Assembly (NCBI GenBank): GCA_017882785.1
Contig: JADGOV010000020.1
Span: 1 to 36,052, forward strand
DNA: 36,052 bases
Source: Frankiaceae bacterium
Lineage (GTDB): Bacteria; Actinomycetota; Actinomycetes; JADGOV01
Reading direction: 5' to 3'
Each line of letters begins with the position of its first letter. Positions within the stretch are counted from its first letter, which is position 1. Shown here one piece after another: positions 14,879 through 31,786 of this stretch. The notes beneath the pieces were generated by a model that had not been told where the DNA came from, searched no databases, and saw nothing but the letters and a program-made list of their open reading frames with translations. The translations under genes were made by a program, and so were the position numbers.

Positions 14879-15229
14879 TCAGTCGCCCTCGACGGACAGG
14901 AACGCATCACGGCCCGACCGTGGATGCGGGTAGCCCAGCCGGGTCAGCGCGGACACGATCTCCTGGGCTCCGCTCGCGCTTGCGGCCAGGACCGTGGTTG
15001 CCCGGATCTCGAGCCGCCGGTGGGCGTCCGCGAGGTCGGCCAACAAGGCCAACACGGGAGCGATCGTGTCACCGCCACCGAGGTCGTAGTCCAGCCACAG
15101 CTCGTCGACCCGGACGCCGGCCTCTGCCATCGCCCGCAGCCCCGCCACCGCCGCCGCGCTGCCGCGGTAGGTCACGCAGGCCCGGTCGTCGCCGAACCGC
15201 CGACGGTCGTCGATGAGGACCCGGGTCAC
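14879..15229 (-). CDS. cREC-like receiver-fold small protein
   Basis: 116 residues from GTG 15229, which overlaps the stop of the upstream glycosyltransferase as GTGA; CGGAGG lies at proper spacing. The fold pattern resembles the cyclic-phosphate-processing receiver-like domain (cREC): an N-terminal acidic pair (VLIDDRRRF), then WLDYDLGGGDT, then a beta strand with LAASASGAQEI. In typical members I recall the second motif is DHDLG and the third contains HSxNP; here the histidines are replaced (DYDLG, AASAS). Translational coupling to a sugar-transferase-like gene is unusual for this domain. Function unknown; it could be a stand-alone binding or regulatory partner. Confidence 0.6.
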   Translation of the reverse strand: MTRVLIDDRRRFGDDRACVTYRGSAAAVAGLRAMAEAGVRVDELWLDYDLGGGDTIAPVLALLADLADAHRRLEIRATTVLAASASGAQEIVSALTRLGYPHPRSGRDAFLSVEGD

Positions 15230-16317
15230 CGACTTGCCTCCGCGATTCCGGTGCCTGTTGGTGACACCGACCCGACGAGGGCGCGCATCTGTGCGGGAAG
15301 CTCGTCGATCGGGACGGGCGGTGGCAGGAAGGCGTCGAGCAGCGATCGCTGAGCGCTCGACATGCCGGCCTCCACGGCAGCGAGTTCGGGCATCGCCACG
15401 CGCAGCACCGGCGTGCCGTACACGGCTGCCAGGTTGACCAGTGCGGTGCTGTTGAACCCGAGTACCACACCGGCATCCACGACCGCCCGATCCAGCTCTG
15501 CCGGGTCGGAGCTGTGGGCCACCGGCAGTCCGTCGAAATGGGACGGGTCCTCGGCCGGGTGTGGACGAACCAGCAGGGCCAGGCCGGCAGCGGCGCACGC
15601 GGCCTGCACGCCGCGGAGCACCGCCGTGTAGCGGCCGGCGGAAAGCTGCCCCAGCTCCACCCAGGGCTGCGAGATCAACACGGCGGTGTCGGGGCTCGCC
15701 GCGCCGACCGACAAGGGGAGTCGGGCCCGGAACTCGGCGGCGATCCGCGGATCGAGCTGCCAGCCGGTCGGTCCGGGCCGGTAGAGGGCCCAGCGGTCGT
15801 CGGTGAGTCGACGGGCTGCCGTGCTCACCGCGACCGCGCGGACCAGGGCACAGGCCCCCCGTCCACCCTGGCGGCGGAACGCGGCCCATCGGGCACGCCA
15901 CCCGCCGTAGCTGCCGAGCCCTTCATCGACGACCACGACCTGCAGCCGCCGGCGGTTGACCAGCCGGAGCCGCAGGTACGGCTTGATGCCTGGTGCACCT
16001 ATCGCCAGGTAGACCAGCGACTCCCCCGGCCTCGCCCGCCAATCGGCCGGGCCGCTGGCGTGCACCAGGCTCAGCCGCGGGCCGATCGGCAACCGCGTGT
16101 CCATATCCGCCGGAGTAACCCGCGGCTCGCCGAGGAAGGCCCCCAGCCCGAGGTCGACGACGTGGACATGACCGACGCCGGCGGTCTCGCTCAGGTACCG
16201 CAGGTAGGCGGCGACATGCAGCAGGTGGGACCGGCTGCGGACGCCGGACAGGAAGACCCGCGTACCGGCGGCGGCACCGGGCCGGGCCGGTGGCGGCGGG
16301 CCCACCGGGTCAGACAA
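15226..16317 (-). CDS. Sialyltransferase-like glycosyltransferase (candidate nonulosonic acid transferase)
   Basis: 363 residues with a GT-B-like layout. The three motifs that define bacterial sialyl- and polysialyltransferases appear in order: DEG (131–133, in VVVVDEGLGSYGG), HP (in LVRPHPAED, 251–257) and ST (in GFNSTALV, 288–295). The C-terminal AAVYGTPVLRVAMPE fits the nucleotide-sugar-binding side. The complete pseudaminic-acid pathway nearby makes CMP-pseudaminic acid a likely donor; this is inference. No signal peptide. Start is TTG 16317, overlapping the GT2 stop by 8 nt, or GTG 16305; neither has a strong ribosome-binding site, consistent with coupling to the GT2 gene. Order on the strand: GT2, this gene, cREC. 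Confidence 0.72.
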   Translation of the reverse strand: MSDPVGPPPPARPGAAAGTRVFLSGVRSRSHLLHVAAYLRYLSETAGVGHVHVVDLGLGAFLGEPRVTPADMDTRLPIGPRLSLVHASGPADWRARPGESLVYLAIGAPGIKPYLRLRLVNRRRLQVVVVDEGLGSYGGWRARWAAFRRQGGRGACALVRAVAVSTAARRLTDDRWALYRPGPTGWQLDPRIAAEFRARLPLSVGAASPDTAVLISQPWVELGQLSAGRYTAVLRGVQAACAAAGLALLVRPHPAEDPSHFDGLPVAHSSDPAELDRAVVDAGVVLGFNSTALVNLAAVYGTPVLRVAMPELAAVEAGMSSAQRSLLDAFLPPPVPIDELPAQMRALVGSVSPTGTGIAEASR

Positions 16318-17227
16318 CCGGTGGCCGACCGGCCCGAGCCAGCCGGGCCACGGTGCGCCAGCGCAGGGGGCGTCGGGGCCCGGCCGGGGTGGTGAGCCCC
16401 TCCCACAGCCCGAGGAACCACACCCGCAGCGGTCCGGGTCGCCGGACGCGCACCACCGTGATAGCGATCCAGACGCCCACGTAGACCACCGCCAGCATCG
16501 GCGGCAGGTTGCGGCGGGCGACCCAGACCCGGTTCCGGGCGTTCATCCGGTAGTAGGTGTCATGGCGGCTGGGGTTCGTCGCGGGATGGTGGACGACGAT
16601 CTCGGGCACGTAGCGGACGACCCAGCCGGCGTCCCACACCCGCCAGACCAACTCGATGCCCTCATGCGCGTAGAAGAACCGCCCGGGCCAGCCGCCAGCC
16701 TGCTCGAACGCCAGCCGGCGAACCGCGAAGACACCCTCCCAGAGACCGGCGACGACACCGCCCCGGTCGGGCTCCCGAACCCGCAGCCGAGGCACCCACC
16801 GCCGTGGTGCCGGCGCCCCACTGGGGTCGAGCGCACGGGGCTGCACGATGGCCGTCCGCTTGTCCCTAGCCAGGACGGCAGCCAGCCGACGGAGCACGGT
16901 GTCATCGGGAAGGTACGCGTCGTCATCGACGAAGACCAGGACGTCACCTCGGACGTGCCGCGCCCCGATGTTGCGACCCTCCGGGATTCCGACGTTCATC
17001 GGCAGGGCGACGGACCGCACGCCCCTCGGCAGTCCGGTGGGCGTCCACCCGTTACCCACCACCAGCACGTCGAGGACCACGCCGACCTGGGACAGCAGCG
17101 ACGCCAGGACCCGGGTCAGGTCCGCCGGCCGGTTGCCCATCGACAGCACGACCGCCCCGAACGACGGCGCGTGCGCCGGCATCCTCGCTTCGGTGGGCTC
17201 CGCGGTCGCGGCCACGGCCAGGGTCAT
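16310..17227 (-). CDS. Family 2 glycosyltransferase (rhamnosyl/galactofuranosyl type)
   Basis: 305 residues from ATG 17227 with GAGGAGGAGG directly upstream. GT-A fold: SFGAVVLSMGNRPADL, VVGNGWTPTG, NVGIPEGRNIGAR, metal-binding DDD (101–103, in VLVFVDDDAYL), WEGVFAVRR, and the acceptor helix FFYAHEGIELVWRVWDAGW with the usual acidic residue. A hydrophobic stretch near residues 246–262 (LAVVYVGVWIAITVV) may anchor the C-terminus to the membrane. It likely transfers a sugar from a nucleotide donor to a lipid-linked or surface glycan. It heads the three-gene reverse unit with the sialyltransferase-like and cREC genes and is divergent from the methyltransferase-like gene. Confidence 0.88.
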   Translation of the reverse strand: MTLAVAATAEPTEARMPAHAPSFGAVVLSMGNRPADLTRVLASLLSQVGVVLDVLVVGNGWTPTGLPRGVRSVALPMNVGIPEGRNIGARHVRGDVLVFVDDDAYLPDDTVLRRLAAVLARDKRTAIVQPRALDPSGAPAPRRWVPRLRVREPDRGGVVAGLWEGVFAVRRLAFEQAGGWPGRFFYAHEGIELVWRVWDAGWVVRYVPEIVVHHPATNPSRHDTYYRMNARNRVWVARRNLPPMLAVVYVGVWIAITVVRVRRPGPLRVWFLGLWEGLTTPAGPRRPLRWRTVARLARAGRPPVV

Positions 17228-17401
17228 GCCTCCTCCTCGACCGACTTCGCACTTCACGGTATGGCATCGCCGAAAAAGGATTCGGACTGTAGGGGCAAAC
17301 TCCGAGCAAACAACCGGTGGCACGGGACGTCCCAGCACACCGGAGCGACAGCCTGTGGTCAACTACGATGGGCCGTTCCGTCGAGCCGGTGGAGGGTGTC
17401 A
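17228..17401. promoter_or_regulatory. Divergent promoter region between GT2 and methyltransferase-like gene
   Basis: Bidirectional 174-bp gap. On the reverse strand a TACCGT box (17256–17261) precedes the GAGGAGGAGG site of the GT2 gene. On the forward strand TACGAT (17364–17369) precedes GGAGGG (17391–17396) of the methyltransferase-like gene. No clear -35 elements are seen. Confidence 0.35.
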
Positions 17402-19255
17402 TTGTCCCCGTATCAGCCAGACGCGGTGTCGGGTGTGCGTCTGGTCGGCGGCGAGATGCTGCAGTGGTCGGACCTCGGGCAGGGCGTCACACCCGGCGTC
17501 GCGACCGTGCTGTTGCACGCGTTGTGGCGGCAAAGCCCGCCACGGCACGTGCTGGCAGTGGGGCCGCGGGCGGCAAGCTGGGTGGAGGCAACCCCGGTCG
17601 GCGCCGACGTCGACGTTCTGGTGCGCGCCCTGCCCGACGCGCGGGCACTGTCGGCGGTCAGTGGTTTGCGACCGGCTGTCACGGTCTACTGCGGCAGCCT
17701 GGACCGCTTCGAGCCGCAGCAGGCGTACGACCTGATCGTCGCGCTGGACGGCCCCGTGCGGTTGGTCTCTCCCGACTCCGAGGGGATCGGGCATCGCGAG
17801 ACGCTGCAGCGGCTGGCGAAGTGGCTGGGACCTGAGGGCACCCTGGTCGCGGTCCTGGAGAACGATCTCGGTTTCGACAACCTGCTGCGCGTGCAGACCC
17901 GCAACCGCGACAGCTCGGACTCGGCCTGGGACCTGGGGGCCTCCGGATTCGACGAGCGGCCGCTGTACTACCGAGAGGTCAACGACGTCCTGGCCGCCGC
18001 CGATCTTGCGGCGCTCTCGGTCTACGCCGTGTTCCCCTCCGCGGAGAACGTGGCACTTCTCGTCGGCCGCGACTGCGTGGAGGAGCGTGCCCTGGCCCAG
18101 ACCGCCGCCGCCCTCGCGGCCCGGATCGAAGCCCGCCACTTCGCCCAACGTCCCGCGCTCGTCGACGCTGCCGATCTGGCGCTGCGCCTGTTCGAGGCCC
18201 ACCAGGTGATGCCCCTGGCCGCCGGGTGGCTGGTCGTCAGCAGGCCGTCCGCCGCCGAGGGGTCGACGTCGGTGGAGCTACCGGCGCTGCTCGCCGGGGA
18301 AGAGATCACCCGCCCGGAGTGGCGGGTGCAGCGCTCCGTCCAGCGGGTCGACGGCGAGTGGGCGCACAGGCTGTATCCCGCGATCAACGCGTCGGAGATG
18401 CGCGAGGGACATATGGTGCGCGACTACCGGGCGCTCGACACGGCGGTACTGCCCGGACCGACCCTCGAGGCGGCGCTGCGGCGGGCCTGCGCCACCTACG
18501 ACGTCGCCAGGGTCCGTACCTTGGTGCAGCAGTACTCTGGCTGGTTGTGGTCACACGTCGGCACCGTCGACGAGGGCGACCCACGCTTCTTCGCGGTGCC
18601 GGCGAACGTCGTTCTCACCACGGACGGCTGCGCGGTGTTCGACCCCACATGGCGATGGACGCAGCGGCTGCCCGATGACGTGCTGCTCGTGCGGGGGCTG
18701 CGCGACTTCTCCCGCCGACTGCTGCGATCCGGCGCGGAACATCCGTGGGCGCCCGACGTCAACCCCGACCGGCTGACCCAGACGCTGGCGGCCATGGCCG
18801 GGGTGGACGTGAGCGCCAAGGCGATCGACCAGGTGGCCCGGCTCGAGGCGGAGATCGAGGTCGTGCTGGGCGGCGGCGACGCAGTGAGCGAGTCCGTCGC
18901 GTACGCGCAGAACCTTGACGCCGGGCGGTCCCAGTTCTCCTCGCAGTCCGGCGCGTCTCGCGGTTACCGGGAAGCCCTGGCGGTCAGCGGGCGACTGGCC
19001 CAGGCGTTGGGCGACCGGAGCGACCAGGTGGAGTGGCTGCAACTCACCGTCCGCGCCCGCGATCGCCAGCTGGGGGATCTCGAGCGGCGGCAGGAGTCGC
19101 TCCGGGAGTCCGTGAGCTTCAAGATCGGCCGCGCGCTGACGTGGCCGGCGCGGTCGCTCGTTCTGCTGGCTCGGCGAGTGGCGGTGTCCGCCATCCCACC
19201 GGGCTACATCACCAAGGCGATGAACCTGCTCCGCCGGTTCGCCGATCGCACCTGA
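17402..19255 (+). CDS. Large SAM-methyltransferase-like protein of the glycan locus
   Basis: 617 residues if the TTG at 17402 (GGAGGG 5 nt upstream) is used; GTG 17396 is an alternative. The N-terminal third looks like a class I methyltransferase Rossmann fold: HVLAVGPRAASW, AVTVYCGSLDRFEPQ, AYDLIVALDGPVRL, then LGPEGTLVAVLENDLGFDNLL, the beta4–beta5 pattern of sugar or lipid methyltransferases. The middle region (about 230–480) is unassigned. The C-terminal 90 residues form a charged, possibly coiled helix (QALGDRSDQVEWLQL, LERRQESLRE) ending in SFKIGRALTWPARSL, a tail I recall from glycan-assembly proteins. The glycine-rich SAM loop is weak. Role inferred as modification or scaffolding of a surface polysaccharide. 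Confidence 0.65.
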   Translation: MSPYQPDAVSGVRLVGGEMLQWSDLGQGVTPGVATVLLHALWRQSPPRHVLAVGPRAASWVEATPVGADVDVLVRALPDARALSAVSGLRPAVTVYCGSLDRFEPQQAYDLIVALDGPVRLVSPDSEGIGHRETLQRLAKWLGPEGTLVAVLENDLGFDNLLRVQTRNRDSSDSAWDLGASGFDERPLYYREVNDVLAAADLAALSVYAVFPSAENVALLVGRDCVEERALAQTAAALAARIEARHFAQRPALVDAADLALRLFEAHQVMPLAAGWLVVSRPSAAEGSTSVELPALLAGEEITRPEWRVQRSVQRVDGEWAHRLYPAINASEMREGHMVRDYRALDTAVLPGPTLEAALRRACATYDVARVRTLVQQYSGWLWSHVGTVDEGDPRFFAVPANVVLTTDGCAVFDPTWRWTQRLPDDVLLVRGLRDFSRRLLRSGAEHPWAPDVNPDRLTQTLAAMAGVDVSAKAIDQVARLEAEIEVVLGGGDAVSESVAYAQNLDAGRSQFSSQSGASRGYREALAVSGRLAQALGDRSDQVEWLQLTVRARDRQLGDLERRQESLRESVSFKIGRALTWPARSLVLLARRVAVSAIPPGYITKAMNLLRRFADRT

Positions 19256-19265
19256 CCCACGGAGG

Positions 19266-19997
19266 TCACGGCTTCACCCGGAACAGCACCCGCTGGCCCG
19301 GCCTGGCTTGGGCCGCGGAGTCGAGGTCGCCCTCGGCCACCACCGCGATGACTGGGTAGCCGCCGGTCACCGGGTGGTCGACGAGCAGGACGGTCGGGCA
19401 GCCGCGCGGTGGCACCTGCAGCGCTCCGGGCACCATGCCCTCGCTCGGCAGTTCCTCGTGCCGAGCGCGGTCCAGCGTCGGCCCGAGCAGGCGCATGCCG
19501 ATCCGGTTGCTCTGCGGGCTCACCTGGTAGACCCCCGCGGCCAGCGTCCGCACCGCGTCCGGAACGAACCAGTCCGGGCGGGGACCGGGCCGCACTCCGA
19601 GGCCGGCCAGCAGGTCCGTGCTGCGGGACCCGAGCACCGCGGGGAGGTCGACTCCACCCCGGACCCCGAGGTAGGTCCGCAGCCCGGCGCGGGGGCGGCC
19701 GAGTGTGAGGCGCTGTCCGCCACGCAGGTAGAACGGGGCGTTCATCGCTCCCGCCCCGCTCGTCAGGCGCAGCGGGCAGGGCGCTCCACAGACCGAGACG
19801 AGGACGACGCACTCGGCTTCGACGGACAGCCCTCCGAAGGTCACCTCGATGCCTGCGGCGGAAGCGGCATTGCCTACCAGCCGGTTCGCCAGCGCGAGCG
19901 ACCCGCGGTCGGCGGCGCCGGCGGCGCCGATGCCCATGTCGGCCAGGCCCGGTCGCCCCAGGTCCTGCAGGGTGGCCAGCGGATCGGGGGTCAGCAC
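19266..19997 (-). CDS. pxpC: 5-oxoprolinase subunit C (KipA-like), shortened
   Basis: Biotin-carboxylase-like KipA family: LATLQDLGRPGLADMGIGAAGAADRGS split over VLTPDPLATLQDLGR and GAADRGSLALANRLVGN, then YLGVRGGVD, VYQVSPQSNRIGMRL, and LPSEGMVPGALQVPP. With PxpA and PxpB it forms ATP-dependent 5-oxoprolinase, converting 5-oxoproline to glutamate. Oddities: only about 243 residues versus roughly 300 in the family as I recall it; the segment between TDLLAGLG and VRPGPRPDWF appears to lack about 45 residues; and no ATG/GTG/TTG lies before GTG 19997 except far upstream, so the first strand is trimmed or a rare start is used. Converges with the methyltransferase-like gene, leaving 10 bp. Confidence 0.8.
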   Translation of the reverse strand: MLTPDPLATLQDLGRPGLADMGIGAAGAADRGSLALANRLVGNAASAAGIEVTFGGLSVEAECVVLVSVCGAPCPLRLTSGAGAMNAPFYLRGGQRLTLGRPRAGLRTYLGVRGGVDLPAVLGSRSTDLLAGLGVRPGPRPDWFVPDAVRTLAAGVYQVSPQSNRIGMRLLGPTLDRARHEELPSEGMVPGALQVPPRGCPTVLLVDHPVTGGYPVIAVVAEGDLDSAAQARPGQRVLFRVKP

Positions 19998-20014
19998 CCG
20001 AAGGCCCAGCCGGG

Positions 20015-20665
20015 TCAGGAAGCCACCTCCACGAACCGGACCGTGACGCCCGGACGCAGCAGCGCCGGTGGGTCCCGGGACGCGTCGAAGACCGGCAACT
20101 CGGTGCGTCCGATCAGTTGCCACCCGCCGGGTGACATGCGGGGATACACCCCGGTGTAGCAGTCGGCCAGCGCCACCGAGCCGGCCGGGACCGACGTGCG
20201 CGGGCTGGCCCGTCGCGGGATCTCCGGAAGGGCCCATGTGGGCGGACTGGGCATACTGGACACAGTGGGCGTACGGGGTACGAGGTATCCGAAGCCCGGG
20301 GTGAATCCACGGAACGCCACGTCCCAGGACCCGGCAGTGTGCCGGCGCACGATCTCACCAGCCGGTAGGCCGATGAGCTCAGCCACCTCGGCGAGATCCT
20401 CTCCGTCGTAGCGGACCGGGATCTGGAGCAGGCCGGCCGTCGACGGTGCCGACGGAAGCGGGCGCCTGGCCCTGACCGCGTCCCCGATCGCAGCGAGGTC
20501 GCTGACTTTCGCGGCGCAGCGCAGCAGCACGGTGCGCGCGGCCGACACGATGTCCACGACCCCCGGCGGCGGGTCGGCGCGCAGCGCCGCCGTCAGGCCG
20601 AGCACGTCGGCGAGAGCGTCGACCTCGACGAGCAGGGCGGTGTCTCCGCACGCCAGGATTCTCAT
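20015..20665 (-). CDS. pxpB: 5-oxoprolinase subunit B (KipI-like)
   Basis: 216 residues, the usual length. KipI/allophanate-hydrolase subunit 1 family: N-terminal [13 protein letters not shown], middle [19 protein letters not shown], then [20 protein letters not shown] (the FxPGFxYL motif), and [20 protein letters not shown]. It pairs with PxpC as the ATP-dependent half of 5-oxoprolinase. The ATG at 20665 lies inside the 3' part of the pxpA frame. In an undamaged arrangement one would expect pxpA to stop at an ATGA overlap exactly here; instead pxpA reads through in another frame. No good ribosome-binding site is visible, so translation may have depended on that coupling. Confidence 0.87.
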
Positions 20666-21422
20666 CCGGAATCAAGGCGAAGGCGGCGAGGCCGACCTGC
20701 GCAAACAGCAGCGCGTCGCGCACCGCCCCCGCGATGGCCACCGCGCCCGGCGTGTCGCCGTGCACGCAGATCGACTGTGCGCGGACCGGCACGAGGCTCC
20801 CGTCGACCGCCAGGACCTCCCCGCGAACGGCCAGCCGGACGCAGCGCGCGGCGATGTCGCCGGCCTCGTGCAGCACGGCCCCCGGCTGTCCGCGGGGCAC
20901 CAGCGAGCCCGCCGCGGTGTAGGCCCGATCGGCGAAGGCTTCGCTCACGGTGGCCAACCCGGCACTGGCCGCCAGGCGGAGCCATGCCGAACCCGGCAGG
21001 CCGAGAACGGGCAGGGACCGGTTGAACAGGAGCACCGCCTCGACCACGGCCGCGGCCTGGTCCTCGTGGGAGACGATGGCCGAGTACAGGGCGCCGTGCG
21101 GTTTGACGTAACGGACTCGACTACCCGCCACTCGGGCCATCGCCTCCAGGCTGCCCGACTGGTGGAGCACATCGTCGGTCAACTCGGCCGGCTCGACGTC
21201 GATGAACCGCCGGCCGAAGCCGGCCAGGTCGCGGTAGCCGACCTGCGCGCCGATCGCGACCCCCCGGGCGACGGCGGCTGCGCACGTGCGGCGCATCGTC
21301 GTCGGGTCCCCGGCGTGGAAGCCGCAGGCGACATTCGCGCTGGTCACCACGTCGAGCAGGGCGTCATCGTCGCCGAGCGTCCAGTGGCCGAACCCCTCGC
21401 CGAGGTCGCTGTTGAGGTCCAT
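20379..21422 (-). CDS. pxpA: 5-oxoprolinase subunit A (LamB/YcsF family), read-through C-terminus
   Basis: The first ~253 residues are a complete Pxp[14 protein letters not shown] with catalytic acids, [58 protein letters not shown] and [15 protein letters not shown]. Family members end soon after this point (E. coli is about 244 residues). Here the frame continues about 95 residues as an Arg/Ala/Gly-rich tail that is the +/- frame shadow of pxpB, stopping at 20379. A TGA exists one frame away at the pxpB ATG, so a 1-nt deletion or a sequencing error near 20670–20720 would explain it. It starts 3 bp after the SDR stop, in the same operon. Confidence 0.82.
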
Positions 21423-21425
21423 CGC

Positions 21426-22175
21426 TCAGATACTGGACCCGCCGTCGACGGTCAGCACCTGCCCGTTGAGATTGGTGTCCTCAAACAGCAGCGTGCGGAC
21501 CAGCGGCACGATGTCGGTCGGTTCCACGAGGCGGCCCGACGGCGTGCGACGGGTGATCGTGTCGAGTTGCTCGCTGCCCAGCGCCGAGGACATCTCGGAG
21601 GCGAAAAAGCCGGGCGCGACGCAGTTCACCAGCGCGCGGCCGTGCATTTCCCGGGCCAGCGTCCGGGCGGCCGCCTCCAACGCGCCCTTGGCCGCGGCGT
21701 AGACCACCAGCCCCGAGTACCCGCGCTGCGCGCACACCGATGTGATCATGACGATTCGCCCGCGACGGCCGCCGGCCAGCATGCGGCGCAGCACCGCCCG
21801 CGTGAGCAGCAGCGGCGCCGTCAGGTTCGTCTCGATGAGGCTCGCGATCCGGTCCGGCGCGGTGTGCACGAGCAGGCTGTCCTGGCCGGCTGCCGCGTTG
21901 TTGACCAGCGCGTCGATCGGCCCGAGGCGGTTCCCGGCAGCCCGGACGAACGCCTCCACGGCGCGCACGTCGGTGATGTCCACCGCCTCGACATACACCT
22001 CCTCCGGGTGCTCGGCGGCCAAGGCGGCGAGTTCGGGGGTCACGGAGCGGGCGAACGCCGCCACGCGTGCGCCGCGACCCAGGATGTCCTGCACGAGCGC
22101 CAGCCCGAGACCCCGGGAGCCGCCGGAGACGACCACGCACGAGGCGGGTGGGATGGGGGTCAGGTCCTCAGACAT
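21426..22175 (-). CDS. SDR-family oxidoreductase (FabG-like ketoreductase)
   Basis: 249 residues, classical short-chain dehydrogenase/reductase. Cofactor loop SGGSRGLGLA (17–26), NNAA (92–95), catalytic S146, Y159 and K163 (Y-x3-K in VVYAAAKGA), and PGFF after the active site. Basic residues after beta2 (FARSV) suggest NADP(H). It resembles FabG-type beta-ketoacyl reductases. ATG 22175 overlaps the ligase stop by 8 nt. Lying between an ACP/ligase pair and PxpABC, it may reduce an ACP-bound keto-acyl group, for example to a hydroxyacyl substituent; substrate is inferred only. Confidence 0.87.
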   Translation of the reverse strand: MSEDLTPIPPASCVVVSGGSRGLGLALVQDILGRGARVAAFARSVTPELAALAAEHPEEVYVEAVDITDVRAVEAFVRAAGNRLGPIDALVNNAAAGQDSLLVHTAPDRIASLIETNLTAPLLLTRAVLRRMLAGGRRGRIVMITSVCAQRGYSGLVVYAAAKGALEAAARTLAREMHGRALVNCVAPGFFASEMSSALGSEQLDTITRRTPSGRLVEPTDIVPLVRTLLFEDTNLNGQVLTVDGGSSI

Positions 22176-23412
22176 CGCTCTTGAGCGTCTCCTTGATCGG
22201 GATGGAGTCGAGCACCCGAACCCGCCTGGGCACCGCGTAGTCCGGCAGCCGTTGGGCACACCATCGGGTCAGTGCCGCTTCCCCGACCGGGGCCCTCAAC
22301 ACGACGTCCGCCACCACCACCTGCCCCACCAGCGGTGCCCGGCGGCCGCGGACCGCAGCCCAGGCAACGTCCGGGTGGTCGAGCAGCACCGCCCGAACGG
22401 CGGCGGCGGATGCTTTCGAGCCACCCACGTTGATCTCATCGGTAGCCTGGCGACCGACAATGTGCACCCGGTCGCCGACGATCTCGACCTGGTCACCGGT
22501 GCGGATCAGGCCGGTCATCCCGCTCGCCCCCCACGGGGACTCGATGAGGAGTTCGCCGTCGGCGACGCGCAGCCGGGCCCGCCCCGGGACATCGCGGTCC
22601 AGCCAGCCCACGGGGAAGCCGGCCCGCCCGTCGTGCACGGCGATGGTCGCGCCGGCCTCGCTCGAGGCGTAGATCCAGGAGATCCGGGCCCGTGGAAACA
22701 GCTCGCCCAGTCGGTCGAGGATGGCCTGGTCCACGGGCTCACCGCCAAGGGTGAGCTGGGCCAACGGCAGCGCGGCCACGGTCGGGCCGGCCCGCCAGAG
22801 CGCCTGCCGCCAGAACGTCGGCGTCCCGGACACTGCCGAGACCCCCTCGGCCAAGGCCACGTCGGGCCAGTCGTCGAGGTCACCCGGCTCGAGGAAGACG
22901 ATGTCCTGGCCAGGATGCGCCAGCGACAACGTGATGACCTGCCACCAGGCGTAGGCGCCAGGTGAGTACGGACATAGCCACCGCCGCGCCGGCTGCTTGC
23001 CGGTCACCGTGGTCAGCGACGCCAGGCTGTGTGCGACCCGCTTCGGCCGCCCGGTGCTGCCGCTGGTGAGCAGCCACAGCCGACCCGGCTCAGGCGGGCG
23101 AGTCACCGTCGGCGGCACGGTGCCACCGGGGCGGACGAGTGCGAAGCCGTCGCGGCGCAACTCCGCCGCCATGGCCTCATCGACCCGCGCCGCCGTGGCG
23201 AGCAACGTCTCGGCACCGCCGCGCAGGTGGGCGGCGACGGCGACCACAGCGCCGCAGTTGTCCGCGACGAGGTGCGCAGCGACCGGCGGCGGATCCGCCA
23301 GGTTGCCGGCTTCAGTTTCGCCGCGGCCCCCGGACAACTCCGACCACGTCAGGTGCCGGCCCGCCACGACCAGGGTGTTGCCGGCGCCGGGCAGAGCACT
23401 CGCGGCGGTCAC
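22168..23412 (-). CDS. AMP-dependent acyl ligase (acyl-ACP synthetase-like)
   Basis: 414 residues, ANL superfamily but compact. P-loop LLTSGSTGRPK (114–124), SGTPTFWRQAL, WIYASSEAG, RTGDQVEIVGDRVHIVGR, DEINVGGSKAS hinge region, and a C-terminal IPIKETLKSDV whose final lysine (K411) matches the catalytic A10 lysine; the protein ends three residues later. It would adenylate a carboxylic acid and load it onto a phosphopantetheine arm, most likely the ACP encoded immediately upstream. The GTG start overlaps the ACP stop as GTGA, so the two are made together. The N-terminal domain is shorter than in usual acyl-CoA synthetases. Substrate acid unknown. Confidence 0.87.
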   Translation of the reverse strand: MTAASALPGAGNTLVVAGRHLTWSELSGGRGETEAGNLADPPPVAAHLVADNCGAVVAVAAHLRGGAETLLATAARVDEAMAAELRRDGFALVRPGGTVPPTVTRPPEPGRLWLLTSGSTGRPKRVAHSLASLTTVTGKQPARRWLCPYSPGAYAWWQVITLSLAHPGQDIVFLEPGDLDDWPDVALAEGVSAVSGTPTFWRQALWRAGPTVAALPLAQLTLGGEPVDQAILDRLGELFPRARISWIYASSEAGATIAVHDGRAGFPVGWLDRDVPGRARLRVADGELLIESPWGASGMTGLIRTGDQVEIVGDRVHIVGRQATDEINVGGSKASAAAVRAVLLDHPDVAWAAVRGRRAPLVGQVVVADVVLRAPVGEAALTRWCAQRLPDYAVPRRVRVLDSIPIKETLKSDV

Positions 23413-23663
23413 ATCCGCTGGAGGGAATCGAGGAACTCGAGCACATCGCCGACGCTGGCGATCTGCCGCAGTCCCGGGGCGTCGAAGTTCAGCTCGTGGC
23501 CGATGTCGTCCTCGACCCGCAGGGCCAACTCGGAGAAATCCAACGAACGAAAGCCGATATCCCGTAACAGTGCGCCGTCATCGTCCGGAAGCCGCTTACC
23601 CTGCGCCGCTACAACCTCGGCCATCAATCCGCGAATGTCATTCCTGGTAAGTAGGCTCATCAT
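23409..23663 (-). CDS. Acyl carrier protein
   Basis: 84 residues, acidic, with the four-helix ACP pattern. The phosphopantetheine serine is S40 in DIGFRSLDFSELALRVED, matching the D/G-x-x-S-L/M/D site followed by helix II. Start ATG at 23663 or the adjacent 23660. It is the first gene of a six-gene overlapping operon (ACP, ligase, SDR, pxpA, pxpB, pxpC) and is divergent from pseH with 89 bp between. A dedicated carrier protein beside a pseudaminic-acid acetyltransferase suggests that an acyl group is prepared for the sugar. A 4'-phosphopantetheinyl transferase is not in the window. Confidence 0.88.
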   Translation of the reverse strand: MMSLLTRNDIRGLMAEVVAAQGKRLPDDDGALLRDIGFRSLDFSELALRVEDDIGHELNFDAPGLRQIASVGDVLEFLDSLQRM

Positions 23664-23752: not shown

Positions 23753-24262
23753 ATGTTGAGGGCGGCCGGCGAGGCCGACCGGCGTGCCGTGCTCCACTGG
23801 CGCAACCATCCTGACGTCCGGGCGATGAGCCTCACCCGTCACGTCATCGCCCCCGCCGAGCACGACGCCTGGTGGGACCGTTCGCTTGCGGATCCGGCTC
23901 GCCGCATCATGGTCTATGAAAGGTACGACGTGCCGTCGGGTGTGGTGACCTTCTTCGACCTCGACCCCGCTGCGGGTTCGGCCTGGTGGGGGTTCTACCT
24001 CGACGTCGATGGCCTCACCGAGCGCGGCGAACTGCTGCCGGCGTGGATCGAGATCTCCCGGGAGGCCCTACGGTTCGCCTTCGACGATCTGGGCCTGGCC
24101 GTGCTGCACGGGGAGGTGCTGGCCGGCAACGAGGCGGTCCGCGCGTTCAACCGGCGCAACCGGATTCGGGAGGTGGGCAGCGGCACCCGCGACATCGACG
24201 GCACGGCCGAGACGGTGATCCGCCTCGAGGCACGCCCCGATGACCGCGGGACCAGCCGGTGA
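23753..24262 (+). CDS. pseH: Pseudaminic acid pathway N-acyltransferase (GNAT)
   Basis: 169 residues, GNAT fold. It begins LRAAGEADRRAVLHWRNHPDVRAM, the usual PseH/RimJ-like opening, followed by FFDLDPAAGSAWWGFYLDVDG, EISREALRFAFDDLGL and VLAGNEAVRAFNRRNRI, the CoA-binding and C-terminal strands. PseH acetylates the C4 amine of UDP-4-amino-4,6-dideoxy-AltNAc from acetyl-CoA, step three of the pathway. Its stop overlaps the PseI start as GTGA. Because an ACP operon is divergently paired with it, an alternative acyl donor (acyl-ACP) is conceivable but unproven. ATG 23753 lacks a strong ribosome-binding site. Confidence 0.86.
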   Translation: MLRAAGEADRRAVLHWRNHPDVRAMSLTRHVIAPAEHDAWWDRSLADPARRIMVYERYDVPSGVVTFFDLDPAAGSAWWGFYLDVDGLTERGELLPAWIEISREALRFAFDDLGLAVLHGEVLAGNEAVRAFNRRNRIREVGSGTRDIDGTAETVIRLEARPDDRGTSR

Positions 24263-25329
24263 CATCCCTGCCCGCCGCCGCCCGCCACGTTCGCATCGGC
24301 GGCCGAGACGTCGGGCCGGCGTACCCACCGTTTGTGGTCGCCGAGCTGTCCGGAAACCACAACGGGGACCTGGGTACGGCCAGGGACCTCGTGCGGGCGG
24401 CCGCTGCGGCCGGAGCCGACGCGATGAAGTTGCAGACGTTCACCGCAGACACGATCACGGTGGACGTCGATCTGCCGGCCTTTCGGATCTCCGCCGAACA
24501 CGAGCTCTGGGGCGGCGCCAACCTCTACCAGCTCTACGACCGGGCACATACCCCCTGGGAGTGGCACGAGCCGCTGTTCGCCCTCGCCCGCGAGTTGGGG
24601 TTGCTCGCGTTCTCCGCACCGTTCGACCCCACGGCAGTCGCCTTCCTGGAAGGCCTCGATGTGCCCTGCCACAAGATCGCCTCCTCCGAGATCACCGACC
24701 TGCCCTTGGTCCGAGAGGCGGCCGCGACCGGCAAACCTGTCATCATCTCGACCGGGATGGCCACCGTCGGCGAGATCGACGCGGCAGTCCGGGCGGCCCG
24801 CGAGACCGGGAACGACGACATCGTCGTGCTGTCCTGCACGGTGTCCTATCCGGCCTCGCCGGCGGACTCCCATCTGCGCCGGATCCCCCTGCTCGCCGAC
24901 ACCTTCGACGCTGTCGTCGGACTCTCCGACCACACGCCCGGCATCGGTGCCGCGCTCGCCGCGGTTGCGCTGGGCGCAGCGGTCATCGAGAAGCACCTGG
25001 TGCTCTCCCGCGACACCGACGGCGTCGACGCGGCGTTCTCCCTCGAGCCCGCCGAACTGGCCGCCCTGGTCCGCGAGTCGCGGATCGGGTGGCAGGCACT
25101 CGGGGAGCCCAGGATCGGGCCGACGGAGAGCGAGGTGGAGGGGCTCCGATTCCGGCGCTCCCTGTACGTGGTCGCCGACGCGCGCGCGGGAGAGATGGTC
25201 ACCCGGGACAACGTGCGCTCGATCCGGCCGGCCGGTGGCCTGCCGCCCGACGCCATCGAGGTGGTACTCGGCCGGCACTTCCGCCGGGAAGCGGCCAAGG
25301 GCACGCCGCTGACCTGGGATCTGGTGTGA
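24259..25329 (+). CDS. pseI: Pseudaminic acid synthase
   Basis: 356 residues, NeuB family with TIM barrel and C-terminal antifreeze-like SAF domain. It condenses the 2,4-diacetamido-trideoxy-L-altrose with phosphoenolpyruvate to make pseudaminic acid. Signatures: VAELSGNHNGDLGTARDLV, MKLQTFTADTITVD, HTPWEWHEPLFALA (typical of PseI rather than NeuB or LegI), KIASSEITDLPLVREAA, ISTGMATVGEID, YPASPADSHLRRIP, GLSDHTPG and EKHLVLSRDTDGVD. The SAF domain runs from FRRSLYVVADARAG to the end (RHFRREAAKGTPLTWD). GTG start overlaps the pseH stop. All metal and PEP residues of the barrel appear intact. Confidence 0.93.
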   Translation: MTSLPAAARHVRIGGRDVGPAYPPFVVAELSGNHNGDLGTARDLVRAAAAAGADAMKLQTFTADTITVDVDLPAFRISAEHELWGGANLYQLYDRAHTPWEWHEPLFALARELGLLAFSAPFDPTAVAFLEGLDVPCHKIASSEITDLPLVREAAATGKPVIISTGMATVGEIDAAVRAARETGNDDIVVLSCTVSYPASPADSHLRRIPLLADTFDAVVGLSDHTPGIGAALAAVALGAAVIEKHLVLSRDTDGVDAAFSLEPAELAALVRESRIGWQALGEPRIGPTESEVEGLRFRRSLYVVADARAGEMVTRDNVRSIRPAGGLPPDAIEVVLGRHFRREAAKGTPLTWDLV

Positions 25330-26766: not shown

Positions 26767-27702
26767 TCACCGGCGCATCTCCTCATCGGCGAGCTCTGCT
26801 GGTCCGGACACGTCGTCCGCGTCGGTGGACAGGTCGCCCTCCGTGCGCAGCGGGGTGCCCGGACCCGCTGTGTAGCGGCGGGCATGCGTCCACCCGAAGG
26901 CCTGCCGGATCTCCAGCGGTGTCAGCTCGGCGCCGATGCCGAGTTCCACCCGAGCGATCTCCGCGGCTTCTGCCACCGGCGCGGCGACCTGGTGCAGCAC
27001 CGGCCAGAGCCGGCCCAGCCGATCGTTGCCACCGAAGACCGGATCCTCGGCATGAAGCAGCATCGGGTCTCCGTACACACCGACCTCGCACCCCACGGAG
27101 GCACCGTAGAAGATCGCGCTGCTCAGCCGGTTGGACACCACCCGCCGGTGCGCCCGCAACTCCGCCAACTGCTTGTAGAGGAACAGGGTGTCGGTGCCTC
27201 TCCAGTTCAGTCCGCGGTAACCGTGCGAGATCACCCGGAACCCGGCCCGCTCGTACTCCCGGCGCACGACGTCGTCCTCGTACTCGTTCCAGTACAGGCA
27301 GATGGTGACCGGGCCCGGTTCGGTGGCGCGGATCTCGGCCACGAAGCTGTCGTGGCTGCCGACGATGTCCTGACCCTCCCAGCCGTGGAAGGGGTAGACG
27401 AGGGTGCCTTCCCGCGGCTGGGGCTGCCGGGCCCAGTTCTGCTGCTCCTCCAGGAGCAGCAGGTAGGCCCACGGCGAGCCGACCACCTGATAGTCGCGCC
27501 GGCCCATCGCCCACCCCCGCCGACGGGGGGCGTCTGACCAGACGAACTTGGGAAACCCGGGTGCGAACTTCGTGCCCACCGCGTATCCGTCGACGACGTT
27601 CCAGCCGTGCTGCAGATAGCCCCAGATCCTGGGCACTTCGGCCAACTCGGCATAGCGAGCCAGAATGTGCGCGTGGCCGTAGAAATGATTGGCATGGTGC
27701 AT
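26767..27702 (-). CDS. Unrecognised transferase-like protein coupled to pseBC
   Basis: 311 residues from ATG 27702, 19 bp after the pseC stop. N-terminus MHHANHFYGHAHILARYAEL, then IWGYLQHGWNVVDG, WSDAPRRRGWAMGRRDY and FHGWEGQDIV. The C-terminal half looks like a GT-B nucleotide-sugar domain: VTICLYWNEYEDD, FRVISHGYRG, and SNRLSSAIFYGASVGCEVGVYGDP followed by HAED. The pattern of a strand plus S-x-R-x3-A-x-x-Y-G is what I would expect for a transferase acting on a glycan. It has no signal peptide or membrane segment. No name can be given; as the third gene of the pseB–pseC unit, a role in assembling or transferring pseudaminic acid is likely. Confidence 0.78.
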   Translation of the reverse strand: MHHANHFYGHAHILARYAELAEVPRIWGYLQHGWNVVDGYAVGTKFAPGFPKFVWSDAPRRRGWAMGRRDYQVVGSPWAYLLLLEEQQNWARQPQPREGTLVYPFHGWEGQDIVGSHDSFVAEIRATEPGPVTICLYWNEYEDDVVRREYERAGFRVISHGYRGLNWRGTDTLFLYKQLAELRAHRRVVSNRLSSAIFYGASVGCEVGVYGDPMLLHAEDPVFGGNDRLGRLWPVLHQVAAPVAEAAEIARVELGIGAELTPLEIRQAFGWTHARRYTAGPGTPLRTEGDLSTDADDVSGPAELADEEMRR

Positions 27703-27721: not shown

Positions 27722-28858
27722 TCAGTGGCCGATGACACGCCGGAGGGCGTCGATGACGCGGTCCTGCTCGGCGTCGGCCAGGTCCACGAACAGCGGCAGC
27801 GAGATCTCCTCCGCGTAATACCGCTCGGCGTTGGGACACAGCCCACGTCGATAGCCGAGGTCTTCGAAAACCGGGTGCCAGTACACCGGGAGGTAGTTGA
27901 CCTGCACGCCGATACCGGCGGCCCGCATGTGGTGGAAGACCTCCCGGCGACGCCCGCCCAGCACCCGCAGCGGGTACAGATGCCAGGTGGGGTCGACGTA
28001 GGGCCGGCGCGCGGGGATCCGCACGCCGGGCAGGTCGGCGAGTCCGGCGTCGTACCGGGCGACGATCTCGGCCCGCCGACGCTTGAAGGCCGTCATCCGG
28101 GCCAGCTGACTGAGCCCCAACGCGCACAGCACGTCGGGCAGTCGGTAGTTCAACCCGAACTCGTGCACCTCCTGATGCCAGGGGCCCTCGTCCGGATACC
28201 GCAGGTCCGCCCTGTCCCGCACGAGCCCGATGTTGTGGAAGCGGGCGGCGCGGACGCCGAGGTTCGGATCGGTGCTCAGCACCGCGCCGCCCTCCGCGGT
28301 GGTGAGATTCTTCGTCGGAAAGAAAGAGAACGTCGTCAGGTCGGCCAACGTGCCGACAGTGCGCCCGTGATACGTCGAGCCGATGGAGTGCGCCGCGTCC
28401 TCGAGCAGGAGCGCGTCGACGCGCTGGGCCACCGCGTGCAGGGCGTCCATCTCCGCCGGGTGCCCGGCGTAGTCCACGGCGGCCACGACCCGCGTCGTCT
28501 CGGTGAGGACGGCCCCGACCGCGTCCGCGTCGAGGTTCCCGGTGTCCTCCTCCACGTCGGCGAAGATGACCCGCGCACCGTGCAGCGCGGCGCTGGAGGC
28601 GGTCGCCACGAACGTGAGCGGCGAGGTCACCACGTCCCGGCCGGGCCCGACGCCGGCCGCGGCGTAGGCGACGTGCAGCGCGGCGGTGCCGCTGGTCACT
28701 GTCACGGCGCTCCGCGCCCCGGTGAAGGCCCGCAACCGCTCCTCGAAAGCGGTGACCGCCGGCCCGGTGGTCAACCAGTCACCCCGCAGCACGTCATTCA
28801 CCGCCGCGATGTCGTCAGCGTTGATGGACTGGCGGCCGTAGGGCAGGACCCCGCTCAC
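27722..28858 (-). CDS. pseC: UDP-4-amino-4,6-dideoxy-AltNAc aminotransferase
   Basis: 378 residues, DegT/DnrJ/EryC1 PLP aminotransferase family. Step two of the pathway: it transfers an amino group to C4 of the PseB product. GTG 28858 overlaps the pseB stop as GTGA. Motifs: YGRQSINADDIAAV at the N-terminus, TSGTAALHVAY (phosphate-binding), DYAGHPAEMDAL, LLEDAAHSIGS, and the PLP lysine K183 in FSFFPTKNLTTAEGG, the same position as in H. pylori PseC as I recall it. C-terminal GIGVQVNYLPVYWHP and ISLPLFVDL are typical. Active-site residues look intact, so the enzyme should be functional. Confidence 0.93.
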   Translation of the reverse strand: MSGVLPYGRQSINADDIAAVNDVLRGDWLTTGPAVTAFEERLRAFTGARSAVTVTSGTAALHVAYAAAGVGPGRDVVTSPLTFVATASSAALHGARVIFADVEEDTGNLDADAVGAVLTETTRVVAAVDYAGHPAEMDALHAVAQRVDALLLEDAAHSIGSTYHGRTVGTLADLTTFSFFPTKNLTTAEGGAVLSTDPNLGVRAARFHNIGLVRDRADLRYPDEGPWHQEVHEFGLNYRLPDVLCALGLSQLARMTAFKRRRAEIVARYDAGLADLPGVRIPARRPYVDPTWHLYPLRVLGGRRREVFHHMRAAGIGVQVNYLPVYWHPVFEDLGYRRGLCPNAERYYAEEISLPLFVDLADAEQDRVIDALRRVIGH

Positions 28859-29838
28859 GCGAAGCGCGCGACCATGTCCCGCATCTCCTCCACACTCAGC
28901 CATTGGTCGTTGGTGTCCGAGCGGTAGGCGAAGCCGGCCGGCACCGGCTTACCGCCCTCCGGCGGCACGTATCCCCACTCGGCGATGGTCGGTTGGACGA
29001 CATACCGATCGTCCAGCCGCAGGGTCCGCCGGGCGTCGTCGATCGCGATCATCTCCTCGTGCAGCTTCTCGCCGGGGCGGATGCCGATCTCATGCACGGC
29101 GGCGCCCGGCGCGACCGCCTCCGCCAGATCCACGATCTTGATGCTGGGGATGCGGGGCACGTAAAGTTCACCGCCGACCATGAGGTCGAAGGATCGGACC
29201 ACGAACTCCACCGCCTGCGGCAGGGTGATCCAGAACCTGGTCATCTCCAGGTCGGTGATCGGCAGTGACTGCCCGGTTGCGGCGAGGTTCCGGAAGAACG
29301 GGATCACTGAGCCGCGGCTGCCCATGACGTTGCCGTACCGGACGACGGCGAAGCGCGAGACATGTCCGGCCGCGTAGTGGTTCGCCGAAATGAACAACTT
29401 GTCCGCGGCAAGTTTCGTCGCGCCGTAGAGGTTGATGGGGCTGGAGGCTTTGTCGGTGGACAGGGCGACGACCTTCTTCACCCCCGCGTCAATGGCCGCC
29501 TCCACCACGTGCTGGGAACCAATTATGTTGGTCTGCACGTATTCAAAGGGATTATACTCCGCGGTGTCCACCTGTTTGAGCGCTGCGGCGTGCACCACAT
29601 AGTCGACACGGTGCATCGCGCGGGTGAGCCGCCCCCGGTCCCGCACGTCGCCGATGAACCAGCGCAGCCGACGGTCGTCGTCGAAGAGCGCGCGGACCTC
29701 GTACTGCTTGTACTCGTCCCGGGAGAAGATGACCAGGCGTGCCGGATCCAGATTGTCCAGGGCGTAGCGGATAAACGCCTTGCCGAAGGAACCGGTGGCC
29801 CCGGTGACGAGAATGGAGGCGCCGGAAAGGGTCGACAT
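28855..29838 (-). CDS. pseB: UDP-GlcNAc 4,6-dehydratase (inverting)
   Basis: 327 residues. First enzyme of the pathway; converts UDP-GlcNAc to the C5-inverted 4-keto-6-deoxy sugar using bound NADP. NAD(P) loop TGATGSFGKAF (12–22), VFIxRDEYKQYE-type region RDEYKQYEVR (40–49), catalytic Asp129/Lys130 in STDKAS and Tyr138 in NLYGATK, with spacing matching PseB. The ATG at 29838 is preceded by CAAGGA. Locally the gene uses AT-rich codons (around 29530–29575: Asn AAT, Ile ATA/ATT, Phe TTT), unlike its neighbours, hinting at more recent acquisition. It is divergent from the cytidylyltransferase gene, separated by 81 bp. Confidence 0.94.
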   Translation of the reverse strand: MSTLSGASILVTGATGSFGKAFIRYALDNLDPARLVIFSRDEYKQYEVRALFDDDRRLRWFIGDVRDRGRLTRAMHRVDYVVHAAALKQVDTAEYNPFEYVQTNIIGSQHVVEAAIDAGVKKVVALSTDKASSPINLYGATKLAADKLFISANHYAAGHVSRFAVVRYGNVMGSRGSVIPFFRNLAATGQSLPITDLEMTRFWITLPQAVEFVVRSFDLMVGGELYVPRIPSIKIVDLAEAVAPGAAVHEIGIRPGEKLHEEMIAIDDARRTLRLDDRYVVQPTIAEWGYVPPEGGKPVPAGFAYRSDTNDQWLSVEEMRDMVARFA

Positions 29839-29919
29839 CGTCAAAGAAGTCCTTGCTGCCGCGGTAACAACTGGCCACCCGGCGCACCTCGCCGGATACG
29901 AGTATGGGATACAGGACCG

Positions 29920-30705
29920 GTGCCGGGAAACACTCACTCTACTCATCGGGCAACCAGCACGGCCGTTGTCGCCGTTGTCCAGGCCCGGATGTCCTCAGCC
30001 AGGCTGCCGGGGAAGGTCCTCCGACCGCTGGCCGGTCGGTCGGTCCTCGGTTGGGTGCTGCGGGCGGCGCAGGCCGCCGACCAGATCGACGAGGTGGTGG
30101 TCGCCACCAGCGTCGACCCACACGACGATCAGGTGGCCGTGGAAGCGGCGCGAGTGCCCGGCGTCCAGGTGTACCGCGGGCCGCTGGATGACGTACTCAG
30201 CCGTTTCGTCGGCGCTGTTGCCGGCCTGGAACACGACGGCACGCAGGTCGGCGCGGTCGTGCGGCTGACCGCGGACTGTCCGCTGCTCGACCCCGAGGTG
30301 ATCAACCTCCTCGTACGCACCTGGCGGGCCTCGCCGACGTTGGATCACCTGAGCACCACCAACCCGCGGTGCCTGCCCCGCGGTCTCGACGTTGAGATCG
30401 TGTCCTGGCCCGCCTTGCTCGACGTCTCCACCTACGCCGACGGGCCGGATCGGGTGCACGTCACCTCGGCCGTCTACCGGCAACCACAGCGCTACGACGT
30501 GGCCGGGATGTGCCTGCACCCGCACGCGGCCGACCTGCGGGTCACCCTGGACACGCCCGAGGACGCCGCGTTGTTGGACGGGCTGGTGCCGCTGCTCGAC
30601 TCCACGCCACCCCGGTGGCGCGACGTGGTCGAGGTGCTCCGCAGTCGATCCGATCTCGTGGCCCTGAACGGGCAGGTGCGGCAGAAGGACTGGAGTGAGG
30701 GCTGA
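29920..30705 (+). CDS. pseF: SpsF-type cytidylyltransferase (CMP-pseudaminic acid synthetase role)
   Basis: 261 residues from GTG 29920. Nucleotidyltransferase of the SpsF/CMP-sugar type: VVAVVQARMSSARLPGKVL (17–35) with the CTP-binding R/S/RLPGK motif, LGWVLRAAQ, VVVATSVDP, VYRGPLDDVLSRFVGA, VRLTADCPLLDPEVIN, GLDVEIVSW and DLRVTLDTPEDAALL. This is the SpsF family (COG1861 type) rather than the canonical PseF/NeuA-like family (COG1083 type), but it is positioned between pseB and pseG and would activate pseudaminic acid to CMP-Pse. Symbol assigned by role and context, not by close similarity to Campylobacter PseF. It overlaps pseG by 11 nt. Confidence 0.84.
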   Translation: MPGNTHSTHRATSTAVVAVVQARMSSARLPGKVLRPLAGRSVLGWVLRAAQAADQIDEVVVATSVDPHDDQVAVEAARVPGVQVYRGPLDDVLSRFVGAVAGLEHDGTQVGAVVRLTADCPLLDPEVINLLVRTWRASPTLDHLSTTNPRCLPRGLDVEIVSWPALLDVSTYADGPDRVHVTSAVYRQPQRYDVAGMCLHPHAADLRVTLDTPEDAALLDGLVPLLDSTPPRWRDVVEVLRSRSDLVALNGQVRQKDWSEG

Positions 30706-31786
30706 CCGTGCCGGCGGCCGCAGCGGCCTCCGGGTGGGGATGCGCTGCGACGCGGGAACCCAGATCGGGGTCGGCCACCTCATCCGCTGTGTCGCACTTG
30801 CCGAGGAGCTGGTATCGCGCGGCGTGGATGTGGTCTTCCTCGGTGATCTCGGCGGGATGGCCTGGGCGTTGCGCCAGCTCTCGTCCCGCGGTCTGCCGTT
30901 GCTGCCGGCTCCGGCCGAGCCGGAGGCACTGCTCGACCTGGTCCGTCGCCGGCACCTGCGGGCCGTTGTCCTGGACGGCTACTCCCTCCCCGCGCACTCC
31001 GGAGCTGCCTTGCGCGCCGGGGGCCTACGGGTGCTGGCCGTCGTCGACGGGTCGTTCGGCCTGGACCAGGAGGCGGACCTCTACCTTGATCAGAACCCGG
31101 GTGCCGCCGATCGGCTGCAGACGTTCCCCCGGGCCGCTTCGCCGGACGGTGGCGCCCAGGCACTCGCCGGTCTGCGCTTCGCGTTGCTGCGCGACCTGGT
31201 CCGCGAGCGCCGCCCACCCAGCGCGCCGCCGCCGCGGCAGCAGCCGGCGGTGCCCTCGGTACTGGCCGTCTTCGGCGGCACCGACCCCCACGGCGCGGCG
31301 GCCCAGGTGGTGCCGCTGCTGCTGGCCACTGGCCGTCCGTTGACCGTGACGGTCGTGGCAGGCCGCCCGGAGACGGCGGCGACGCTGAGCGGGTTGCCCA
31401 CCGCGGAGTCCCAGCGGATCACTGTGAGCCCACCCCTGGACGACCTGCCGGCCGCGGCCCGCGTCGCCGACCTCGTCGTCACCGCCGCCGGCTCCTCGGT
31501 CTGGGAGTTGCTCTGTCTGGGTACGCCGACCGCGGTGGTCTGCGTCACCGACAACCAGGAGGTCGGCTACCGCCACGTCATCGCGCAGCGACTCGCAGCT
31601 CCGGTGGGAGTGCTCGGCGAGCTTCGTGCGCTCGACCCAGGCGCCCGACGGGCGGCGGTGCGGGTCCTGGACGGCCTTCTGAGCGATCCCTCCGCGCGCG
31701 CCGAACTCGCTGCCCGGGGGTGGGCGCAGGTCGACGGCCGAGGCCGGGAGCGGGTGTCCGATGCGCTGCTCGCCGGCCTCGAATAG
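30695..31786 (+). CDS. pseG: UDP-2,4-diacetamido-2,4,6-trideoxy-L-altropyranose hydrolase
   Basis: 363 residues, GT-B-like fold with hydrolase function. It removes UDP to release the free sugar for PseI. N-terminal RCDAGTQIGVGHLIRC with the catalytic histidine (H28), LGDLGGMAWAL, VLDGYSL, VVDGSFGLDQEADLYLDQN, GLRFALLRDL, VFGGTDPHGAA, and the nucleotide-binding C-terminal AGSSVWELLCLGTPT and DNQEVGYRHVIA. The GTG at 30695 overlaps the end of the cytidylyltransferase gene by 11 nt, so the pair is co-translated. This completes the six pathway steps in the window. Length is close to family members, slightly long at the C-terminus. Confidence 0.93.
   Translation: MRADRAGGRSGLRVGMRCDAGTQIGVGHLIRCVALAEELVSRGVDVVFLGDLGGMAWALRQLSSRGLPLLPAPAEPEALLDLVRRRHLRAVVLDGYSLPAHSGAALRAGGLRVLAVVDGSFGLDQEADLYLDQNPGAADRLQTFPRAASPDGGAQALAGLRFALLRDLVRERRPPSAPPPRQQPAVPSVLAVFGGTDPHGAAAQVVPLLLATGRPLTVTVVAGRPETAATLSGLPTAESQRITVSPPLDDLPAAARVADLVVTAAGSSVWELLCLGTPTAVVCVTDNQEVGYRHVIAQRLAAPVGVLGELRALDPGARRAAVRVLDGLLSDPSARAELAARGWAQVDGRGRERVSDALLAGLE

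Follow-up and report, generated by a model that had tools for sequence, protein, structure and literature searches.

Gene organization of the locus

The window (the whole stretch of DNA analyzed, 36,052 nucleotides from the genome of a Frankiaceae bacterium) contains on its minus strand an open reading frame (ORF) that runs from a TTG start at 16317 to 15226 and encodes a protein of 363 amino acids, considered here, on the basis of its motifs, Pfam match, structural model, and residue conservation, as a candidate GT-B transferase of CMP-pseudaminic acid (CMP-Pse). Frame 1 of the plus strand of the same interval is not open. The TTG start overlaps by a few bases the stop codon (16310 to 16312) of the gene directly upstream on the same strand, a GT2 family glycosyltransferase (16310 to 17227; start inferred, ORF extending to 17362), and the two genes thus appear to be translationally coupled. 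Immediately downstream of the transferase, the minus strand encodes a small cyclic-phosphate processing receiver-like domain (PF20274; 14879 to 15250).

Genes for the synthesis of pseudaminic acid (Pse), a sugar akin to sialic acid, were located by model searches in the same window. PseI, the pseudaminic acid synthase (24259 to 25329, plus strand), scored 437.5 bits against TIGR03586 (cut-off, 340.25) and 269.9 bits against the NeuB model, and it is preceded by a PseH-like N-acetyltransferase (23753 to 24262, plus strand; TIGR03585, 78.9 bits, below the cut-off of 93.1). The PseB dehydratase (28855 to 29946, minus strand) exceeded its cut-off as well (TIGR03589, 480.4 bits; cut-off, 407.75), while the PseC-like aminotransferase (27722 to 28903, minus strand; TIGR03588, 417.6 bits; cut-off, 423.5) and the PseG-like hydrolase (30695 to 31786, plus strand; TIGR03590, 135 bits; cut-off, 153.55) remained below theirs. 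A CMP-sugar synthetase, the PF02348 cytidylyltransferase at 29914 to 30705 (plus strand; start inferred, ORF opening at 29362), was assigned to PseF by its position, since the PseF model gave just 26.4 bits, below the cut-off. On the minus strand, a FabG-like SDR oxidoreductase (21426 to 22259) and an AMP-binding acyl ligase (22168 to 23412) are co-conserved with the Pse locus and adjoin a small acyl-carrier-protein-like ORF of 84 amino acids (23409 to 23663; weak hit). In addition, 5-oxoprolinase-type genes (CT_A_B, CT_C_D, and LamB/YcsF; 19266 to 21422, minus strand) lie between the glycan genes.

Two further genes encode uncharacterized proteins. DUFx (26767 to 27702, minus strand; protein starting MHHANHFYGHAHILARY) is conserved in Pse loci and represents a rival candidate transferase (discussed below). 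Searches of Pfam, NCBIfam, and PHROG returned no match for it, and it was rejected as a recognizable glycosyltransferase on account of its poor model (pLDDT 53), the lack of a convincing match, and the lack of profile similarity to the transferase family. Its homologues were observed in L023, L025, L026, L027, L049, L083, L093, L097, L100, and L107. The second, a large protein with a coiled-coil-like C terminus, encoded divergently to the GT2 gene (17384 to 19255, plus strand; start inferred), gave no match in a database search; homologues were observed in L025, L026, L083, L089, L097, and L100, and lie beside the GT2 gene in many relatives. As an idea only, this protein could possibly be a glycan chain regulator of the WbdD-like type.

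Family placement, conserved residues, and predicted fold

The sequence-only reading had pointed to three sialyltransferase motifs in this protein, and the positions that it gave for DEG (131 to 133), HP (253 to 254), and ST (290 to 291) are correct. The protein contains one [DE][DE]G motif, one HP, and four [ST][ST] pairs. When sequences of the same composition were shuffled, the motif order alone recurred in 3.9% and the order together with sialyltransferase-like spacing in 0.5%; thus, the motifs in a single sequence are weak evidence, which becomes strong through conservation among relatives.

HMMER matched residues 208 to 304 to PF07388 (A-2_8-polyST, alpha-2,8-polysialyltransferase) with 27.2 bits (cut-off, 23.3), and profile-profile comparison extended this C-terminal match to residues 100 to 307. 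Specifically, hhalign against 19 PF07388 proteins gave a probability of 95.7% and an E value of 1e-8 with all three motifs in register, pairing DEGLGSYG, RPHP, and NSTAL of the transferase with ADGLMSYG, KPHP, and FSTAL of the Streptomyces-type proteins. An NCBIfam search of the transferase protein returned no match, and PDB sequence searches with the single sequence and with a profile returned nothing relevant, the solved polysialyltransferase not being reached directly. In a 51-protein tree, the commoner Streptomyces-type PF07388 proteins formed a separate clade (split support, 100/100). These actinobacterial proteins are homologous to the transferase and share its motif columns but differ from it by this clade of their own, by an A/S-D-G motif and KPHP, and by lying mostly beside NeuB-like synthases instead of PseI. 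Since the PF07388 cut-off was passed, the new family proposed in the sequence-only reading is not a wholly new one but a separate deep branch. The transferase thus belongs to a superfamily already known, in which its branch has no name, and its fold is not new.

Close relatives are uncommon: within the class, they occur in 3 of 395 genomes (source genome counted), and within one actinobacterial family, the transferase gene was present in 32 of 150 genomes. When two peptide patterns were searched against 84,980 species genomes, nine loci were retrieved, two of which came from the betaproteobacterium Chitiniphilus, so that the earlier restriction to actinobacteria has to be abandoned. Moreover, the window protein grouped with the two Chitiniphilus proteins (100/99, ∼52% identity), apart from the remaining actinobacterial proteins, a placement that suggests gene transfer between phyla. 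No near relatives were found on plasmids. In one genome (G416, L107), the transferase is split across two frames, suggesting a frameshifted or decaying copy, and in another (G408, L106), the transferase match is weak and partial only.

Among 32 relatives, the window protein included, E132, G133, H253, and P254 are invariant (32/32), and D131 occurs in 31, with N in the one exception. T291 is found in all 31 aligned relatives and S290 in 30 of 31, the sole deviation being S290T. E274, which was absent from the sequence-only reading and was added by the present analysis, is kept in every aligned relative and in 19/19 sister-clade proteins, and it precedes S290 by 16 residues, exactly as E323 precedes S339 in the Mannheimia haemolytica polysialyltransferase (MhPST). 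In MhPST, E153 serves as the base and H291 as the acid, while E323 contacts the ribose and S339 and T340 the phosphate (PMC5517516); in the Neisseria meningitidis polysialyltransferase, E153 and H278 stand in the corresponding motifs, and their mutation impairs activity (PMC2169525). The proposed counterparts of MhPST E153, H291, E323, S339, and T340 would be E132, H253, E274, S290, and T291, respectively. Because E153 has the second place of the motif in the characterized enzymes (PMC2169525, PMC5517516), E132 is the predicted catalytic base rather than D131, whose mutation the sequence-only reading had proposed. Likewise, H253-P254 is predicted to form the acid/phosphate site, E274 the ribose contact, and S290-T291 the phosphate contacts. 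The D/E-D/E-G base and the HP motif characteristic of GT38 are thus present, as the invariant E132 and H253.

AlphaFold2, supplied with an 11-row alignment, gave a GT-B model (pLDDT 85, pTM 0.83), whose best PDB match in Foldseek was 5wcn, the GT38 polysialyltransferase of M. haemolytica with CDP (E value 2.8e-7, TM 0.47, 11% identity), with many other GT-B enzymes close behind. The GT-B fold anticipated by the sequence-only reading was therefore recovered, with a CDP-bound bacterial polysialyltransferase as the best solved match, and the conserved E274, H253, S290, and T291 add the C-terminal CMP site of GT38 to this prediction. Non-hydrolyzing 2-epimerases also appeared near the top of the fold search, with a higher TM (0.55), as might be the case for a GT-B-fold protein that is no glycosyltransferase at all, such as a relative of UDP-sugar 2-epimerases; however, both the top match by E value and the pattern of residues point to a sialyltransferase, PF07388 homology was detected, and no epimerase family was matched in Pfam or NCBIfam, which makes such an identity extremely improbable. 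The candidate is most likely a distant relative of the GT38 polysialyltransferases, which make polysialic acid capsules (MhPST and NmB-polyST; PF07388). It resembles them in the GT-B fold and in carrying D/E-D/E-G, the ribose Glu, HP, and ST in equal order (PMC5517516, PMC2169525), and it differs from them in having no direct sequence match to the solved enzyme and in lying alongside a Pse, not a Neu5Ac, pathway.

Association with pseudaminic acid biosynthesis

Among the 150 genomes of the actinobacterial family, PseI exceeded its cut-off in 37, comprising 31 of the 32 transferase carriers and 6 of the 118 transferase-free genomes (Fisher P = 5.7e-25, a value that overstates independence because the genomes share ancestry). 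The 32nd carrier (G466) has PseI fragments at contig ends. PseI lies inside the ∼20-kb stretch examined in 28 of the 32 distinct loci, and in the remaining four it is 12 to 15 kb off, on another contig, or broken by a contig end; usually, the distance to the transferase gene is ∼10 kb or less, Chitiniphilus included. All nine pattern-scan relatives also occur in or near Pse loci, with Pse genes at ≤10 kb. The link to the Pse pathway, previously drawn from one neighborhood, is thus far stronger and extends over 32 loci, and the transferase gene was found only in bacteria with Pse biosynthesis genes.

Loci of the sister PF07388 clade contain a NeuB-like nonulosonate synthase in 16 of 19 cases, with the NeuB model scoring higher than the PseI model in 10/10 tested, and Kdn polymers occur in Streptomyces walls (PMC11481543). 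Both points would suit a sialyl-, Kdn-, legionaminyl-, or Kdo-transferase to which the nearby Pse genes are incidental. Against this stand the co-occurrence with PseI across 32 genomes, the single PseI-model match of the source genome, which is over the cut-off, and the scores at each locus tested (the window and seven relatives, 8/8), where PseI passed the equivalog cut-off and lay far above the NeuB model; such a specificity is accordingly very unlikely.

The NeuB-like synthases beside Streptomyces-type PF07388 genes in L032 to L043 and L045 to L048 are ∼300 amino acids long. In the ten of these that were scanned, the match ends short of the NeuB model end, and the C-terminal domain may be missing.

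Proposed role in surface glycan assembly

From the co-occurrence with PseI and the predicted CMP site, we infer a function in CMP-Pse transfer. The protein is probably (roughly 0.78) an inverting GT-B enzyme with CMP-Pse as its donor, which acts together with the adjacent GT2 to incorporate Pse into a glycan of the cell surface. The donor, CMP-Pse, would be supplied by the neighboring Pse enzymes, and the C-terminal domain would hold the cytidine monophosphate, its ribose through E274 and its phosphate through H253 and S290/T291. The acceptor hydroxyl would lose its proton to E132 in the DEG loop and attack pseudaminic acid at C2. Together with the GT2 of the same operon, the enzyme would assemble a Pse-bearing unit of a surface glycan, either a repeat or a terminal one, in the cytoplasm, and this unit would then be exported.

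The GT2 adjoins the transferase in 28 of 32 loci, and SDR, AMP ligase, PseH, and PseI recur with it in constant order. In Chitiniphilus, the neighbors include a UDP-sugar dehydrogenase and Pse genes, and the transferase gene is flanked by a flippase-like protein on one side and by two GT2s and a WecA-like initiating enzyme on the other, which is the typical layout of a repeat-unit assembly locus. These surroundings bear on a variant of the favored reading with the same donor, in which the enzyme would polymerize poly-pseudaminic acid chains as GT38 enzymes do with polysialic acid. The best fold match is indeed a polysialyltransferase, PF07388 is named after such enzymes, and an ABC exporter gene pair lies directly downstream in L024 and L025; nevertheless, 28 of 32 loci have a second glycosyltransferase adjacent to the gene and Chitiniphilus has several, an arrangement that suits a mixed-sugar repeat, and the sequence and the fold model are equally compatible with single and repeated transfer. 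Polymerization is possible but unlikely. Considering the locus context, that is, the adjacent GT2 and the Chitiniphilus assembly line, we therefore favor transfer of a single Pse residue into a surface glycan. Of the alternatives in the sequence-only reading, a pseudaminyl- or a polysialyl-like transferase, the former gains support from PseI co-occurrence, whereas polymer formation is not supported over single-residue transfer.

A Pse-glycan enzyme that transfers another sugar, with DUFx, the GT2, or an unseen enzyme as the Pse transferase, would be consistent with the conservation of DUFx across Pse loci, even in some where the transferase is missing (L101 and L102). It would also be consistent with G433 (L100), one of the six PseI-bearing genomes of the family that lack the transferase, which has retained the Pse genes together with the large divergent gene but has neither the transferase nor the GT2. 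Near their position, that locus encodes a 483-amino-acid protein with HP and SST motifs (L100, 2847 to 4298, plus strand; no Pfam match), a possible functional replacement; this pattern would fit an exchange of acceptor-specific transferases. However, the CMP-binding residue set is that of sialyltransferases, CMP carries few sugars beyond nonulosonates and Kdo, no glycosyltransferase signature could be detected in DUFx, and the L100 protein, with its similar motifs, may fulfil the same function on a different acceptor. Transfer of another sugar is therefore distinctly improbable.

Maf flagellin pseudaminyltransferases transfer nonulosonic acids and act on flagellin. Nonulosonic acid transfer is shared with the role proposed for the candidate, whereas neither flagellin nor a PF01973 (Maf/MptE-like) protein was found in the source genome. 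To our knowledge, few pseudaminyltransferases have been characterized, and none for actinobacterial glycans was found in the open-access literature. GT118 KpsS1 of Acinetobacter is a retaining KpsC homologue that transfers Pse5Ac7Ac to a surface glycan (cited in PMC12887879). The candidate would share with it the transfer of Pse to a surface glycan, but has no PF05159 match (a proxy for KpsC/KpsS homology) and is predicted to be inverting. PF05159 was not found elsewhere in the source genome either, and these absences argue against flagellar glycosylation and a GT118-type enzyme, both of which were rejected.

As a more specific and tentative proposal, with odds somewhat against it, the transferases may form a clade of inverting pseudaminyltransferases dedicated to Pse and separate from both Maf and the retaining GT118. 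This clade would serve actinobacterial and some betaproteobacterial surface glycans, possibly with an unusual N-acyl group that the acyl ligase, the carrier protein, and the reductase of the co-conserved set would supply. With a conserved enzyme whose partner is identified and whose donor pathway is always present, the Pse-transfer step would become directly testable, and the candidate could provide a tool for pseudaminic acid glycoside synthesis. Moreover, the clade split, with PseI on one side and NeuB-like neighbors on the other, offers a natural comparison for the residues that choose between two sugars.

The SDR, the AMP ligase, and the small carrier-like ORF (21426 to 23663; the carrier ORF was examined in the window alone) recur with PseH and PseI and could be the source of an unusual N-acyl group on pseudaminic acid.
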